A stretch of 64,000 nt of DNA, taken from positions 372,001 through 436,000 of the forward strand of contig CP045239.1 of assembly GCA_020541345.1 (NCBI GenBank). Reading direction: 5' to 3'. Below the pieces are notes generated by a model. That model made no database searches, was not told the origin of the DNA, and saw only the letters and a program-made list of their open reading frames with translations. The DNA comes from Candidatus Ecksteinia adelgidicola (GTDB lineage: Bacteria; Pseudomonadota; Gammaproteobacteria; Enterobacterales; Enterobacteriaceae). Below, piece after piece: positions 2,463 to 52,723 of the stretch. Numbering within the stretch: position 1 is the stretch's first letter; the number at the start of each line of letters is the position of its first letter. The translations under genes were made by a program, and so were the position numbers.

Positions 2463-2935
2463 ATAATATCTCTTAATTGATAATTTTTATATTATCATAT
2501 TATTAATAGTCAATTTATATTGCTAATTTAATGATATAATTCATCGTATTGATTCTTTTAATTTTTATAAATTAATTAAAAGTAATATTATATAGAATCA
2601 TCAAAAAAAAATAAAAAATTTTATTGTGCATGCATATTATTGGTACTATAAAATTTTGTTTATTATTTTATATCGTTATGACATCAAAATAGTTATCATA
2701 TTACAAGTCATAATTTATTAAATTATGTTTTTTATATTCGTTAAATATCTTATAATACATAAAAAAATAAAAAATTATTAAATAATAATTTTTATAAAAA
2801 AGTTTATCAAAATAACATTTTCAATATTTATTTTATATGTTATTAAATTCTATATCTTTACGTATATTGATGTTAGTTTTTTAGATGTACGTATTAGTTA
2901 TACTTATGATGATTTTATCTAAGATAAAACAAATT
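2463..2935. other. Non-coding gap, tusA/polA divergent region
   Basis: Divergent interval of about 470 bases between tusA and polA that must hold both promoters. It is too AT-rich to pick out hexamers with confidence. No gene is visible. Confidence 0.6.
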
Positions 2936-3835
2936 ATGATTAAAATTATAAAAAATCCAATTATTTTAATTGATGGTTCTTTTTATTTTTATCGTGCATA
3001 TTATGCTTATCCTTCACTTAGTAATTCATTAGGTGAACCGACTGGAGCAATATATGGTATGTTAAAAATGTTACGTAATCTTCTTGTACAGTATGAATCT
3101 ACTCATATTGGAATAATATTTGATTCTAAAGAAAAAACATTTCGTCATTATTTATTTGATAAATACAAGTCAAATCGTCCAATCATGCCAGATGATTTAC
3201 GTCTACAAATTAAACCGTTATATAACATGTTAAAAACAATAGGATTACCATTCTTTATGGTCCCAAAAGTAGAAGCAGATGATGTTATTGGTACATTAGC
3301 GTTAGAATCTGATAGAGCAAATCGTTCAGTACTAATTAGTACTGGAGATAAAGATATGGCACAATTAGTAACAAGAAATATTGCTATATATGATACTATT
3401 CAGAATATTGTTCTCGGACCAAAAGAGATACACCATAAGTATGGTGTTCCACCTGAACTAATAATTGACTATCTTGCATTAATGGGTGATGCTTCAGATA
3501 ATGTACCAGGTGTTCCAGGAATTGGAAAAAAAACTGCAAAAATATTATTACAAAATTTTTTTGGATTAAATGCCTTATACAATAATCTTGACAAAATTTC
3601 TAAATTAAAGTTTTATGGATCTAGATCTATATCAGAAAAATTATATCAACATAAAGAAATCGCATACCTTTCTTTAAAACTTGTAAAAATAAAAACTAAT
3701 GTTAAGTTAAATTTTTCGTATGCTGATCTTATCGTATTTAAATCAGATATTAATCAATTAAAAAAAATGTTTATAAAATACGAGTTTAATAATTTGTTAC
3801 AAGATTTTTTTATTAAATATTTAGCTTATAGTTAA
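2936..3835 (+). CDS. polA: 5'-3' exonuclease (flap nuclease) domain of DNA polymerase I, standing alone
   Basis: This 299-residue protein aligns end to end with residues 1 to about 300 of E. coli DNA polymerase I, and not with the shorter Xni. Visible motifs are ILIDGSFYFYRAYYAYP, NSLGEPTGAIYGML, FDSKEKTFRH, VEADDVIGTLA, LISTGDKDMAQLV and MGDASDNVPGVPGIGKKTA, which carry the acidic metal-binding residues and the helix-hairpin-helix. The role is removal of RNA primers and 5' flaps, with nicks then sealed by LigA (26671). The start at 2936 (MIKIIKNPIILIDGS) matches the E. coli N-terminus; an in-frame ATG 17 codons earlier adds unrelated residues. The proofreading and polymerase (Klenow) domains are absent and no remnant follows the stop. 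The same reduction is known in Buchnera. Confidence 0.93.
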   Translation: MIKIIKNPIILIDGSFYFYRAYYAYPSLSNSLGEPTGAIYGMLKMLRNLLVQYESTHIGIIFDSKEKTFRHYLFDKYKSNRPIMPDDLRLQIKPLYNMLKTIGLPFFMVPKVEADDVIGTLALESDRANRSVLISTGDKDMAQLVTRNIAIYDTIQNIVLGPKEIHHKYGVPPELIIDYLALMGDASDNVPGVPGIGKKTAKILLQNFFGLNALYNNLDKISKLKFYGSRSISEKLYQHKEIAYLSLKLVKIKTNVKLNFSYADLIVFKSDINQLKKMFIKYEFNNLLQDFFIKYLAYS

Positions 3836-30332: not shown

Positions 30333-30454
30333 TTTTAAAGTAAATGGAAAAGCCACACACTTAATTATTTATTAAAAAATTGGGATATTTCATTGTTCTG
30401 ACCGATTTATTAAAATTATTAACATTAAGTTAACTTTTTGATCAGTTTGACTAA

Positions 30455-30667
30455 TTAAATAGCAGTAACATTAGCAGCTGATGGACCTTTAGCTCCATTT
30501 TCAATAGAGAACTGCACGTTTTGACCTTCTGTTAAAGTTTTAAAACCTTGATCTTGAATTGCAGAAAAATGCACGAATACATCTTTACTACCGTCTTCTG
30601 GAGTGATAAAACCAAAACCTTTAGACTCGTTAAACCACTTTACTTGACCTTTGATCATGTTAGGCAT
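30455..30667 (-). CDS. cspE: Cold-shock protein, CspA/CspE family
   Basis: RNA chaperone of 70 residues with one cold-shock domain; RNP1 KGFGFI and RNP2 VFVHF are intact. The start ATG at 30667 ([15 protein letters not shown]) has AAGGAA seven bases upstream. An in-frame ATG 12 codons earlier would run translation through the ribosome site and is rejected. The C-terminus [14 protein letters not shown] resembles CspE, while the segment before the ATG (TTATTATTAAAGG...AGTATG) resembles the cspA leader, so the exact paralogue is uncertain. Unlike cspC (12238) it has a long, less AT-rich leader with a cold-box-like element (next entry) and a strong terminator, which suggests temperature-responsive expression. 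Confidence 0.92.
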
Positions 30668-30842
30668 ACTAAAATTTCCTTTAATAATAAATGTCCCCAC
30701 CATGGGTATATTATAGCCAGTTATCAGTTACTTATGGAGGCACTAGAAAGGAAATTCGTCATAGAAGAGCTATCTAGAGGATAACGCTTGAAATTTGAAC
30801 TACTTTACTCAAAATGTCGTGCATAAATAGGTCTGTACTACA
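30668..30842 (-). promoter_or_regulatory. Long cspA-type 5' leader with cold-box-like element
   Basis: On the minus strand TGTAGTACAGA (30842-30832) matches the cspA cold box TGACGTACAGA at 9 of 11 bases and lies about 165 bases before the ATG, close to the roughly 160-base leader of E. coli cspA. The last part, TTATTATTAAAGGAAAT, resembles the cspA ribosome-site region. The whole stretch is visibly richer in G and C than the DNA around it. A TATAAT lies at 30715-30710 and could be a second, inner promoter. Presence of the motifs is seen; thermosensing is inferred. Confidence 0.6.
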
Positions 30843-30849
30843 GGCCATA

Positions 30850-35478: not shown

Positions 35479-36489
35479 ATTCATCCTATACATTTAAAAA
35501 ATTTTTATATATTATATAATTAATATATTTATATATTATAAAAAAGAATAAAGTTTTATTAGCTTTATTATAAAAATTCTTTCAAATAAAAATATAAATT
35601 ATATTTTTTAATGTTGTTATTTAAATTAGTAATAAATTAAACTTTTTATTTAATTTAACAATTTAAAACAACTTGATATTTATTAATAAAACATGTAGTT
35701 TTATTAATTTTATACATAATACTGATTTAAGTAGTAAAAGCGTTAATATAAAAATATATAGTATAATATTTTATTTCTTTTATTAGATCTATATAGATGT
35801 TTAATAAAAAATTATTGTCACATTTTTATGTTTTATTTATATAAAATATAAATACAATTGATATCAAAATATTATTAGTTGATTATTAAATTTTTTAATT
35901 TAAAATATTTAATACATTGATCTATTTTTTAAATTTTCAAATAACTTTATATATTATATAAATAAAATTTATTAATAGTGATTACATTGTTTTTAATAAT
36001 TTAATAAAATTCTGTAGTATAAAAACTATAGAAATTCATTAAACAATTATTAAGATATTTATAATATTAGTCTTTAAAGAGTTATATTAAAATATTAAAA
36101 AAGAAAATAGAAGCAATGATTTTTTATAATTTTATACTGTAATAATATAAAATAAAATTATGTTAAGTAAAACACTTTTATTATCAAAGTAGTATTTATT
36201 TTAGTACATATATGAATAATTAATATTTAAAAAAATATCATACATAATAAAATGCGAAAAAAATTTTAATTTATAATATGATCGTTAATAAAATGTTAAT
36301 ATAAAACATTTTATAGAATCGTAATTCTATTAAGAAATTTATAATAATAAACAATAAGATAAAAAATATATTTAAAAATAATATTATAGTTTAAATATTT
36401 TAAAATTAATAAAAATTATAATAAAATAAAAATTTAATTACTAATTAAATAAAATTTAATGTTAATAAAACAATACTAAATATACAATT

Positions 36490-36523
36490 ATTATTGATGA
36501 TTTTCTATTATTGATGATTTTCT
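36490..36523. repeat. Tandem duplication, 17 bp x 2
   Basis: ATTATTGATGATTTTCT occurs twice without a gap (36490-36506 and 36507-36523), both copies exact. Confidence 0.9.
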
Positions 36524-38512
36524 TTATATTTATGATGGCACTAATATTTTATTATAATTTAATATATATTATTTATTGTTATAAAATATTAATAATTATG
36601 TTTTTTTTAAATTTTTTATATATTTTATTATTTTATAATAAACAAGATAATGATTGTCTTTTAAAAATAATATATAATAGTTATTATTTATTATTTATAC
36701 TATACTTTGTTTATTATGTTTATTATATTAATTTAAAATTAATTTATTTAGATATATTTTATATTAATATTGTATTGATAATGTAATTATAACAATCATA
36801 GGTTTTTGATTATTTATATTTTTTTATTTTAACAAAAAAAATTACTTTAATTTATTATTAAAAATTGTTTATTTATACTTTATTTCTGCTATTTATTATG
36901 ATTTGATATTAATCATAAATTAATAATTAAAAATAATTTTTTATTATCTATTTTAATAAAATAGTAATAATTTTTAAAATAAACTATAAAGTTATAGTTT
37001 ATATTAAATTTTAATTTTTATCTTATAATATTTTTATTAAAATTTTAAAATGCTAATTAATGTATTAAAAATAAAATTAATACAATAATTTTTAATTAAA
37101 AGTTTATTTGTTACAATGTAACGATTTTTTTATGTAAAAGTTTAACATTTATTACGTTTAAAAAAATAAATATATTGTGTTTAAAGTAAAATGTTTAATC
37201 TAAAGGTATTGTTTTAAATAAAAAAATTTTAAGAATATAAATTGTTATCTATTAAAAATATTAAAATAAAAGTTTATATAAAAATTATTAATTAGATGAT
37301 ACAATTGCATTATATAAACAGTAATCGTATATTAAAATTCAATATCTAAAAATTTATAAAGTATTTTTAATATAACATATCATATTATACATAAAATTGT
37401 TTTAAACATTCATATCTAATGATAAAAATAACATTTTAAGTTGTTAAACTTTTAAAATTAACTATAAACAATAACATTAAATTATTAAATCAAAATATTT
37501 TATTTTTAATATTTTTTATTTATATAAAGATTCTATAAAACGTTTTCTATTATTTTAAAATAAAGTAATCATAATATTATATAATTAATTATAAAATTTA
37601 AATTAAAATATAAATAATAAAAATTTTATTAATAAGTATTAATATTAAAAATAACTAAAATAAATTACAATTATTATTGTAATAACAATTATTTTTAATA
37701 TTAAAAATAACATGCTATGACTAGTTATCTTAATTGTTATTATATATTTAATGACGTTAATTTTAAGTTTAAAAATGAACTAATAGATAAAAACGCATAA
37801 AATTATATATATTTTATAATAATTAATTTTTATATAATATATTAATATAAAAATAAAAAAGATCTTTATAAGAAAACTAATTACTTTTATCAGTATGTTT
37901 TTTTAGTTAAAGCAACAGTATGCATTATATATTAATTTGGCATTAGTTTATATATTATAATATTTATTTAATAATATTATTGTTATTTTAAAAATTAAAA
38001 AAAATAAATATGTGTAAAATCTAAATTTTTTTTAAATTAGATGTAACATTTTTATATTTATTATTAATATAATATTATTTTTTAATAAAAAGTAAGAATT
38101 TTCGTTGTTAATTTTTAAAATGAATATTTAATATTAACATGAAAAAATATTTAATATAGTAATAATATTTTTTTAATGTTTTATGTTTTATTCATTTTTA
38201 TGAAAATGTATTATGAAGTAGTATTAAATTATATATTTTTCTATTATTATACTTTTAGCATTAATTTATCAAAATTATTATTAACAATAAAAGTAGTAAA
38301 TTACGTTTTTTTATTCTATTTTTAAGATATGTTTCTTATTTAGAATTAATATTAATTTTAGTATTATAATGTAATAACAGTATTAATGAGAGCTAAAATA
38401 AAGTATATTAAACTTAATAAAGTGAAACAATATATTTTTAAAAAATGAATTTTTTAAAATGTTTATTTTTTAATATAACTTTTAAAAATCGCTCAAATTT
38501 TTATTTTACTGT

Positions 38513-38543
38513 ATTATTAGTAGTGTAATTATTATTAGTAGTA
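38513..38543. repeat. Tandem duplication, 18-bp period
   Basis: ATTATTAGTAGT begins at 38513 and again at 38531, an 18-base period, with the tail of the unit diverged. Confidence 0.75.
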
Positions 38544-40493
38544 TTATATATAGTGTTATTCGTAAATATTATAAACTTATTGATGTTTTGAAAATGTTCG
38601 TTTTTAGTACATTTTTCACAAAAAATCAATATAATAATTAATTAAAAAAACATCTATTATACTATTTAAAAATTTATATAAGTTTTTTATCTTTTTAAAA
38701 ATCATGATAAATCTTAAAATATTATGAATTAGTTAAAAAAATATTAATTCAGTATGTCATTGTTAATTTTTGTAAGATGATTAATTTTGTTCATTATTTC
38801 TAATATCAAGATCAAAGAAAATGTTATTTTTAAAAGTTTTATTATTATACTTAGTAGTAATGAACATTGTCTATAATAACCATGTCAATACTATTCAAAC
38901 TAAATAAATATAAAAATGTTAATTTTATTTTAAAAATTTTACTACAAAAAATCATAAAGTTTTTTTACATATTAAATATAACAAAATATTATATATAATA
39001 AATTAAAAACGATTACTTATAGATTAGATGTTTTAATTAAATAAAAAAATATTTTATCATATTAAATTAAATAATGTTTTATATTATTTTAAAATTAAAT
39101 ATTAATATTATTAAGATATTTTATTGTTGTGTATTGTTTTGTTTTATATATAATGTCAACAACAGTATAATATTAACAACAGAATATTACATAATTAAAA
39201 AAACAATTATATATAATCGATAATAAACATACATAAAAATATTAATTATTGAGGTTTAATATATAATAGTCAAATCTTAATTTTTATCTATAAAAATAAA
39301 AATTTTAAAATATAATTATATTAACATAGATACATAATAATATTGAAAAAAACTAGCGTAAAACAAGTAATCCAATTTAAAAATAAAACTTCTTATTTAA
39401 AGAAAGAATAAAAACATTGTTTTGTTATGATCATCTAATAAAAATTGATATTTTTATTTTTAAATATTTATTCTTCTATGTTTTTATATTTTTAATTTTA
39501 TTATAAATAATAAATGATGATTTTGTAAAATATTTTTATCACTGAAACAATTTTTAATACTAATTATGATTTACTATTATTAGTTATAAGTCTATAAGTT
39601 AATATTGTTTTTTTAAAAAATATGAAAATCTATCAATTATTTTATATTTTATTATTTATTACTATTTTTAATTGATTAAATATTTTTTTATGTTGTAATT
39701 TAAAGTTATTGTAATCTACAGTTAATTAATTTTATGTTATGAGATAACATAACAAGAATATTTATTTTTTCAATAAAAGATAAAAAAATTTTTAAAAAAC
39801 ATTAAAATAAAATAAAAACATTGTGATTAATGATTTTATAAAAATGATAAAAAATTTTATGAAAAAATGTTAATATATAAAATTATTTTATATAAAGAAA
39901 TATATTATAATAATTAAAAAAGTTTATTATTTATAAAGTTAATAAAATTTTTACTAAACTTATAATATTAAAAATAAAATACAAATTATGTAATGTATTA
40001 AATAAATTTTAATTCTTATTTATAATATGTCTATATTAAATATTATTATATGAAATTGATATAAAATTTATTAAAAACAAAATATAAAAATTTTATTATG
40101 TTTAAGATAAAAATATTTATTATATATAAATATAATTTTTATTTTTAAGTAAATTTAATATTATACTATTTATAAAAATAAATATTATTATTTTATATTT
40201 TTGTTTGTTTTTTTTTAATTATAATTATCTATTATATTGTTAATTTTACAATTTTTATAATAAAATATTTTTATTATTAAAAATAATCATATTTAACTAA
40301 GCTGTATCATACACAAACATACAGTATAAAAGATTATTTTATTTATAGCTTTAGTTCACTTATCTAAAATTTTTAATATTTTTCAGATTCATGCTCAATA
40401 ATATAATTCTTAATTATTTTTAACTTTTTATAATAAATATATGTTTTTAAATAAAACAAATTTTCGATAAACGTAAGTACATATTTTATATAT

Positions 40494-40566
40494 TGATAAA
40501 ATAATTCTTATGTTTGCTATAATAGAATTATAAAACATCTCATAAAAGATGAGTATATTTTTTAAG
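40494..40566 (+). promoter_or_regulatory. Promoter-like element closely followed by a hairpin and T-run
   Basis: TTGATA near 40494 is followed 19 bases later by TGCTATAAT, an extended -10 box. Within about 20 bases comes a short hairpin, CTCAT-AAAAG-ATGAG (or the alternative CATCT/AGATG), and then TATATTTTTT. This would give a transcript of roughly 40 bases. It lies about 300 bases before tRNA-Gln. It may be a tiny RNA, an attenuated leader, or a coincidence of AT-rich DNA. Confidence 0.35.
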
Positions 40567-40843
40567 ATTTATATAGATATGAGTATTTATATAATTTATC
40601 TATTTAAATAATGATTGTATAAAAATTAAATTTATTTCAAAAAAACTAGTTGCTTTAAATAAATTATATAGGCATAATTTATTATATTCTTTTAAAATTA
40701 TTATAATAAAACTTTACTATAATTGTCATACTTTCAACATAATCAATTTTATAAAAATATATATTTATATTTTATAGAATACAATTTGTAATTTTAACTA
40801 TTTTAACTCTTATCTTTTGTATTATTTCTATTGATAATTTTTT

Positions 40844-51331: not shown

Positions 51332-51931
51332 ATGATTAGCAAAGAAAATGAAATATTAAATAAAAAAACATTAGATAAAGTAGAAGAACTACAAGTAGTT
51401 CAATCTCATGAAATACTAAAAGAACCTGAAAAAAATGTTGATTTACGTGATGCTCGCATTTCTGAATTAGAAATTCAATTGCTTGAAAGTCAAAAAAATG
51501 AACGAAATAAACATGACGCTTTTCTTCGAGCAAAAGCAGAAATAGAAAATATAAGACGACGAACTGAACTAGATATAGAAAAAGCTCATAAGTTTGCATT
51601 AGAAAGGTTTTCTAGCGATTTATTATTTGTAGTTGATAGTTTAGAACGCGCACTAGAACTAATAGATAAAAATAATTATGAATTGAAATCAACAATTCAA
51701 GGTATTGAATTAACGTTAAAATCTTTACAAGATTTATTATATAAGTATAAAATTAAAACTATTTCTGATATAAATGTACCGTTTAATCCAGATATACATC
51801 AAGCCATGAGTCTTATTGAATCTATTGATCAAAAACCAAATTATGTCATATCAGTAATGCAGAAAGGTTATATGTTAAATGGACGATTATTACGTCCGGC
51901 AATGGTAACAGTTTCTAAATTAAAAGAATAA
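51332..51931 (+). CDS. grpE: Nucleotide exchange factor GrpE
   Basis: Releases ADP from DnaK in the Hsp70 chaperone cycle. It has 199 residues (E. coli 197). A charged N-terminal region and long helix (about 1-90, [33 protein letters not shown]) form the dimer stalk; a four-helix part ([21 protein letters not shown]) and the C-terminal beta domain contacting DnaK follow ([35 protein letters not shown]). GGAG lies eight bases before the ATG. It is driven by the heat-shock promoter at 51261 and ended by the shared terminator at 52011. It is likely to be highly expressed, as chaperones are in symbionts. Confidence 0.97.
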
Positions 51932-52010: not shown

Positions 52011-52045
52011 AAAATCCGGAAATAAACACTATTTTCGGATTTTTT
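52011..52045. terminator. Bidirectional terminator between grpE and ung
   Basis: AAAATCCGGAAAT (52011-52023) pairs with ATTTTCGGATTTT (52031-52043) around the loop AAACACT, with one G-U pair. It is flanked by T residues on the plus strand and preceded by A residues, so it can serve both convergent genes. It abuts the ung stop codon. Confidence 0.85.
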
Positions 52046-52723
52046 AGAAATTTGGTAATAACCAGTTAATTGGTTTTAATCCTATGCTTTTTATTAATTG
52101 ATTAGTTTTTGAAAAATGTTTACAACCAAAAAAACCTCGATAAGCAGAAAGTGGTGATGGATGTGATGTCTTTAAAACATAGTGATAATTATCATTGATA
52201 AAAGAAGCTTTTTTTTGTGCACATGCCCCCCATAATAAAAATACTATTGGATTAGAATTTCTATTAAGTATTTTGATTACTTCATCAGTAAAAATTTCCC
52301 ATCCTAATTTAGTATGCGAATGTGCACAACCATGCTCTACAGTAAGCACTGTATTAAGTAATAGTATACCTTGTTTAGCCCAACTTTTTAAATTTCCATG
52401 TTTTTGTCGTTTAAATTGAGGAATATCAATTTCTAATTCTTTATATATATTAATAAGAGATGGAGGTAAAATAGAAACATTAGGATATGTTGAAAAAGCT
52501 AAACCATTAGCTTGATTGAAATCAAAGTAAGGATCTTGTCCAAGAATAACTACTTTAACATTTTCTAAGCTAGTAAATTTAAAAGCATTAAATATATCTT
52601 TTTGTGGTGGATATATAATTTTTCCAATTTTACGTTCAGAAATAATAAAATTGATTAAGTTAATAAAGTAAGATTTTTTTTTTCTTGATTAAAAAAGTGA
52701 TGCCAAGTAAAAGAAGAAAGCAT
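52044..52723 (-). pseudogene. ung: Uracil-DNA glycosylase, one-base frameshift in an A10 tract
   Basis: Ung removes uracil from DNA. From ATG 52723 the frame reads [14 protein letters not shown], then a run of ten A (52674-52683, T on the plus strand) throws it out of frame and a stop follows seven codons later. With eleven A the frame continues [11 protein letters not shown]...[12 protein letters not shown]...VVILGQDPY to [14 protein letters not shown], a full protein of about 226 residues against 229 in E. coli. The downstream frame is open to 52044. Catalytic Asp (GQDPY) and His (HPSPLS) remain, but the conserved YHGPGQAHG has become YFDFNQANG. It could be a young pseudogene, a gene rescued by slippage on the A-run, or a sequencing error. 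Confidence 0.85.

Follow-up and report, generated by a model that had tools for sequence, protein, structure and literature searches.

The ung gene of Candidatus Ecksteinia adelgidicola raises the question whether a gene that loses its reading frame within a homopolymer is dead or still in use. The gene encodes a family 1 uracil-DNA glycosylase and is complete save for one frameshift at a run of ten A near its 5' end. The window, meaning the whole stretch of 64,000 nucleotides that was analysed, corresponds to bases 372001–436000 of a genome assembled as a single 980,458-bp contig, with a G+C content of ~20% in the sampled parts. Coordinates of the features at the locus are collected in Table 1.

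Table 1. Features of the ung locus (window coordinates).
Feature	Position	Strand	Remarks
ung (uracil-DNA glycosylase, family 1)	52044–52723	−	One frameshift, rest complete; 226 aa with eleven A
A10 tract, site of frame loss	52674–52683	−	Codons 14–17, E-K-K-K; includes the heptamer A AAA AAA
N-terminal 5' piece of ung	52684–52723	−	Includes the start codon and invariant Trp
Catalytic core of ung, shifted frame	52044–52673	−	
Altered segment behind the catalytic Asp of Ung	52512–52541 (approximate)	−	Variable across symbionts generally
grpE, convergent neighbour of ung	51332–51931	+	

The ung locus and its lesion

The plus strand holds exactly ten T at 52674–52683, and the first-pass annotation was right to place the loss of frame precisely there. 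Beyond the tract, zero other stops or shifts were present, and the coding composition of the gene was not lost. Read on the minus strand, ung starts with an ATG at 52723–52721, regains the Ung frame at the tract and stops at 52044. The zero-frame codons across the run are GAA AAA AAA AAT, and the −1 frame then continues with TCT. Eleven A in the tract give a product of 226 residues that has the family's catalytic residues along with GQDPY and HPSPLS, in agreement with the earlier claim that one more A would complete an Ung of about 226 residues.

The gene order nadK-grpE-ung is common to this genome (G000) and genome G029, in which ung is intact. A scan for a terminator between grpE and ung found none, and promoter matches at the grpE-ung junction were no more numerous than in shuffled sequence.

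Ung identity and the altered motif

The core of the protein scored 310.7 bits against the NCBIfam equivalog model for uracil-DNA glycosylase (cut-off 223), and ung gave the single match to PF03167, the UDG-family model, in the whole genome. The protein was aligned with 109 reference Ungs of free-living as well as symbiotic bacteria. The catalytic Asp in GQDPY, the Asn of LLNTVLTV and the His of HPSP are invariant in the 109 and are all found in the window Ung; the N-terminal Trp is likewise kept in 109 of 109.

The alignment upheld the earlier observation that YHGPGQAHG, beside the catalytic Asp, has become YFDFNQANG, with GQDPY itself retained. Soon after this segment the window Ung has further odd residues (V to T, R to Y and one extra Leu). 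The residue directly following GQDPY is His in 108 of the 109 references and Phe here. This change had been taken to favour relaxed selection, a reading that did not survive the wider comparison. Among the 92–93 symbiont ungs counted (Providencia siddallii enters twice), Tyr, Phe, Cys, Ile or another residue takes the place of the His after GQDPY in 14 of the 24 with a frameshift and 38 of the 69 that are in frame (Fisher p = 0.82); Asn or Asp often stands at the His of AHG as well. Because replacement is equally common in both groups, the motif was rejected as evidence of relaxed selection or decay. Judged from the aligned sequences, the His after GQDPY cannot be relied on to define Ung in symbionts; YFDFNQANG is the usual look of Ung in AT-rich symbionts and uninformative on the decay of the window gene.

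Recurrence of ung frameshifts across symbionts

We collected ung from ~92 symbiont-sized Enterobacterales genomes in a frame-aware alignment that was checked by eye. The lesion proved to be one of many. Frameshifts were found in 24 of the 92 ungs, each with a single lesion in an A/T run, and none of the 24 carried a second lesion. The N-terminal A-tract, formed by the E-K-K-K codons ahead of a YF pair, was out of frame in 18 genomes belonging to 11 genera. Six further ungs were shifted at other A/T runs, namely at an A10 near residue 172 in all three Wigglesworthia-type genomes (one genus), at an A10 near residue 168 in G078, at an A9 near residue 26 in G014 and at a T10 in G317. That ung is frameshifted at A-runs time and again among symbionts appears to have no description in the open-licence papers searched.

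On a tree of the Ung core (92 rows), frame state changes ~16 times, and at least seven of these changes are forced by strongly supported branches. In-frame and shifted species are mixed in genera g68, g97 and g83, and every sampled member is shifted in genera g134, g115 and g125. Frame state also followed the length of the N-terminal tract, with 0/54 out of frame at nine A or fewer and 18/38 at ten or more (p = 6e-9; the counted genomes are kin, so that this and the following p-value overstate independence and the tree count is the safer guide). A steep rise of indel mutation with run length contributes to this pattern, which is not proof in itself, but dead genes would be expected to gather stops and shifts at other sites as well, and none of the 24 has any. 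In-frame tracts made up more than the one third to be expected were frame irrelevant (25/43 in frame and 18/43 out, p = 0.001); therefore, the reading frame matters.

A different peculiarity was seen in G235 and G127, two genomes of genus g126 (~0.26 Mb, ~12% GC at ung). Both have TGA at invariant Trp sites of ung and no other lesion in the gene, which suggests that TGA may be read as Trp in these organisms.

Selection on ung

The frameshifted ungs of other symbionts remain under purifying selection. The dN/dS comparison among related symbionts that the first-pass annotation had recommended was run, and values for the shifted sets lay mostly at 0.2–0.3 (g134, 0.23–0.27; g115, 0.25–0.33; g68, 0.21–0.29; g97, 0.30–0.33), similar to the 0.17–0.35 of the in-frame sets. 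For the Wigglesworthia-type ungs, dN/dS was 0.18–0.43 ahead of the tract and 0.23–0.24 behind it, where dS was unsaturated.

Selection in the window lineage, which has no close relative with ung, was gauged indirectly by composition and relative rate, dN/dS coming from the other frameshifted ungs. The GC content of the ung core by codon position (.376/.314/.100) resembles that of a live gene; two intergenic stretches had a GC of 0.08–0.11. The G000/G029 branch ratio was 1.90 for ung versus 1.58 for grpE and 1.70 for nadK, a slightly long branch for ung. The gene is dispensable in some relatives, since it has been lost in G001, a member of the same genus, and in two other reduced genomes, G204 and G407. 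A search between grpE and gyrB of G001 found no ung remnant. Three tRNA genes and a very AT-rich spacer occupy the place of ung beside grpE in that genome (L120 12317–12638).

Other tracts and repair genes in the same genome

The survey of homopolymer tracts took in the window plus another 16 stretches of 20 kb each, 384 kb in all. Coding-embedded tracts that are read in frame comprised 43 of nine bases, 12 of ten bases and one A11. Genes with an A10 tract in frame include topA, ispE and phr. The truly shifted tracts were those of ung and pth; other flagged tracts were judged from their translations to be gene boundaries or rRNA. The pth gene (G000:C1:551198–551751, minus strand) is present in a single copy and carries a G followed by an A10 that is one base short (tract at L228 11633–11642), where one extra A restores EKKKFFGYTS. 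In E. coli, pth is essential. Two options apply to ung and pth alike: rescue of both genes, or an A11 that was undercounted in each. Runs of ten or more were scarcer than the Markov expectation, and runs of 11–12 exist in the assembly.

The genes acting downstream in uracil repair, xthA and ligA, are intact, and Nfo is absent from the genome. The polA of the window (2885–3835) encodes a stand-alone 5'-3' exonuclease (5' nuclease) domain of 316 aa. Coding density in the window is less than half, and ~5 kb at 35600–40800, with 11% GC, contains no recognisable gene. A cspA thermoregulator RNA (159.5 bits) is kept at a cold-shock gene (30417–30849) despite the reduced genome.

Proposed rescue by slippage

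We consider it probable, at roughly 0.6, that ung is a living gene which would be rescued by slippage on the A-run, either through transcriptional addition of an A or through a −1 ribosomal shift. The window ung has its sole lesion, an indel, within a long A/T run, as is characteristic of slippage-rescued symbiont genes. The gene is most likely read through rather than dead because 24 of 92 symbiont ungs share this kind of lesion and yet stay conserved. The parallel deficit in pth, the intact xthA and ligA and the live-gene composition of the ung core also speak for a living gene. That slippage takes place here, and how much product it gives, is our inference. Under AT pressure, the conserved E-K-K-K codons would become nearly all A, and long A-runs would arise. 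Such runs may drift into and out of frame, with out-of-frame alleles lasting only where the run is ~10 or longer. RNA polymerase would then insert an additional A at the A10, so that the mRNA carries 11 A and a fraction of the product regains the frame; alternatively, the ribosome may slip by −1 on the heptamer A AAA AAA. The extra A and the ribosomal slip would yield an identical 226-residue Ung, and a reduced quantity of active enzyme may suffice to hold the gene under purifying selection.

An undercount in the assembly, a possibility also named in the first-pass annotation, would dispense with slippage altogether. The chromosome would truly carry 11 A at ung (and pth), one having been dropped in sequencing or consensus, and the gene would be intact. 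It is consistent with this that both broken genes in the 384 kb are exactly one A short at an A10 and that runs of ten or more fall below the Markov expectation. We nevertheless think it rather unlikely, given the nine-base, ten-base and A11 coding tracts of the survey that are read in frame, the freedom from error of the shorter tracts and the survival of runs of 11–12 in the assembly. Moreover, the homologous frameshift recurs across many independent assemblies, and run lengths in Buchnera genes naturally end near 11 too (PMC5574713). A very young pseudogene, in which Ung has only now been lost to the frameshift and the remainder is still undecayed, is the reading that the first-pass annotation had set against slippage. 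That rivalry stands, but the lean towards relaxed selection does not, as the comparative data point in the opposite direction. The absence of ung from G001, G204 and G407, the standing of A-runs as the likeliest first site of loss and the slightly long ung branch all fit recent death. However, ~24 genes would all have to be caught during the short time that passes until another lesion arises, affected lineages keep low dN/dS, whole genera share the shift and the coding composition of the ung core is intact. If pth is essential in this organism, moreover, the same lesion there cannot mean that the gene is lost. We therefore regard recent death of the gene as unlikely.

A restart at another initiation codon, producing a slightly shortened Ung without slippage, is very improbable for the window gene. 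Its core frame has no ATG, GTG or TTG from a TAA immediately upstream of the tract until a GTG at nt 374, far beyond GQDPY; an ordinary alternative start for an active enzyme is thereby ruled out, and initiation would have to use a rare codon such as ATT. The Wigglesworthia-type and G078 lesions sit late in the gene, where bypass by restart is impossible. The idea draws its support from the frameshifted Buchnera-type ungs of G030, G098, G217, G358 and G301, in which an ATG lies in the core frame at the tract itself. This ATG is a possible new start, use of which would drop the invariant Trp, and it may be the answer in some Buchnera-type ungs.

Implications for uracil repair

Annotation pipelines would tend to label such ungs pseudogenes, and uracil repair would accordingly be reported as lost in many symbionts. 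Pseudogene calls on ung would in turn feed the story of repair loss driving AT bias. On the comparative evidence, we argue that many frameshifted symbiont ungs are probably still in use. The length threshold of the N-terminal tract, together with the sister species of mixed frame state, provides a natural testable series in which frame restoration can be followed per A-run length. More speculatively, and in our view doubtfully, the 5' A-run of ung could be a recurrent switch in AT-rich symbionts, its frame drifting at ten or more A and uracil repair being repeatedly lowered to a slippage-limited level. If the A-run did act as such a switch, the amount of Ung, and hence the C-to-T rate, would be determined by how long a single homopolymer is.

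Comparison with known systems

Transcriptional slippage reportedly rescues poly(A)-frameshifted genes of Buchnera and Blochmannia, in studies attributed to Tamas 2008 and Wernegreen 2010. Slippage rescue of frameshifted poly(A)-tract genes in these two symbionts is reported, with the homopolymer-frameshifted pth of B. vafer as a candidate, in PMC3017870, and the Tamas 2008/Wernegreen 2010 cases are also cited in PMC4389277. Two published results we count against slippage rescue. Insertions/indels in Buchnera transcripts climb exponentially with the length of the A/T run, and no frame-restoring case was found genome-wide (PMC5574713); for E. coli RNA polymerase, runs shorter than 7 T or 8 A led to no detectable rescue, and the enzyme slips little on A-runs of ~8 (PMC6260861).

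The window ung resembles the Buchnera and Blochmannia cases in having a single indel in a long A-run within a gene that is otherwise intact and conserved, in an AT-rich insect symbiont. It differs in that the lineage is not Blochmannia, the gene is ung and the slippage is putative. Ribosomal frameshifting of the dnaX type operates at −1 on A AAA AAG. The window ung has A AAA AAA in the right register and requires a −1 shift, but the shift is needed here for the full protein, whereas in dnaX it serves the shorter one. In Citrobacter rodentium, the frameshifted tssM is restored by transcriptional frameshifting, as described in PMC4256274; its products are demonstrated there and the function of the gene is unrelated, whereas the scheme of frame restoration is alike. 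The ung lesion is of an ordinary kind for such organisms, one with precedents in Buchnera and Blochmannia.
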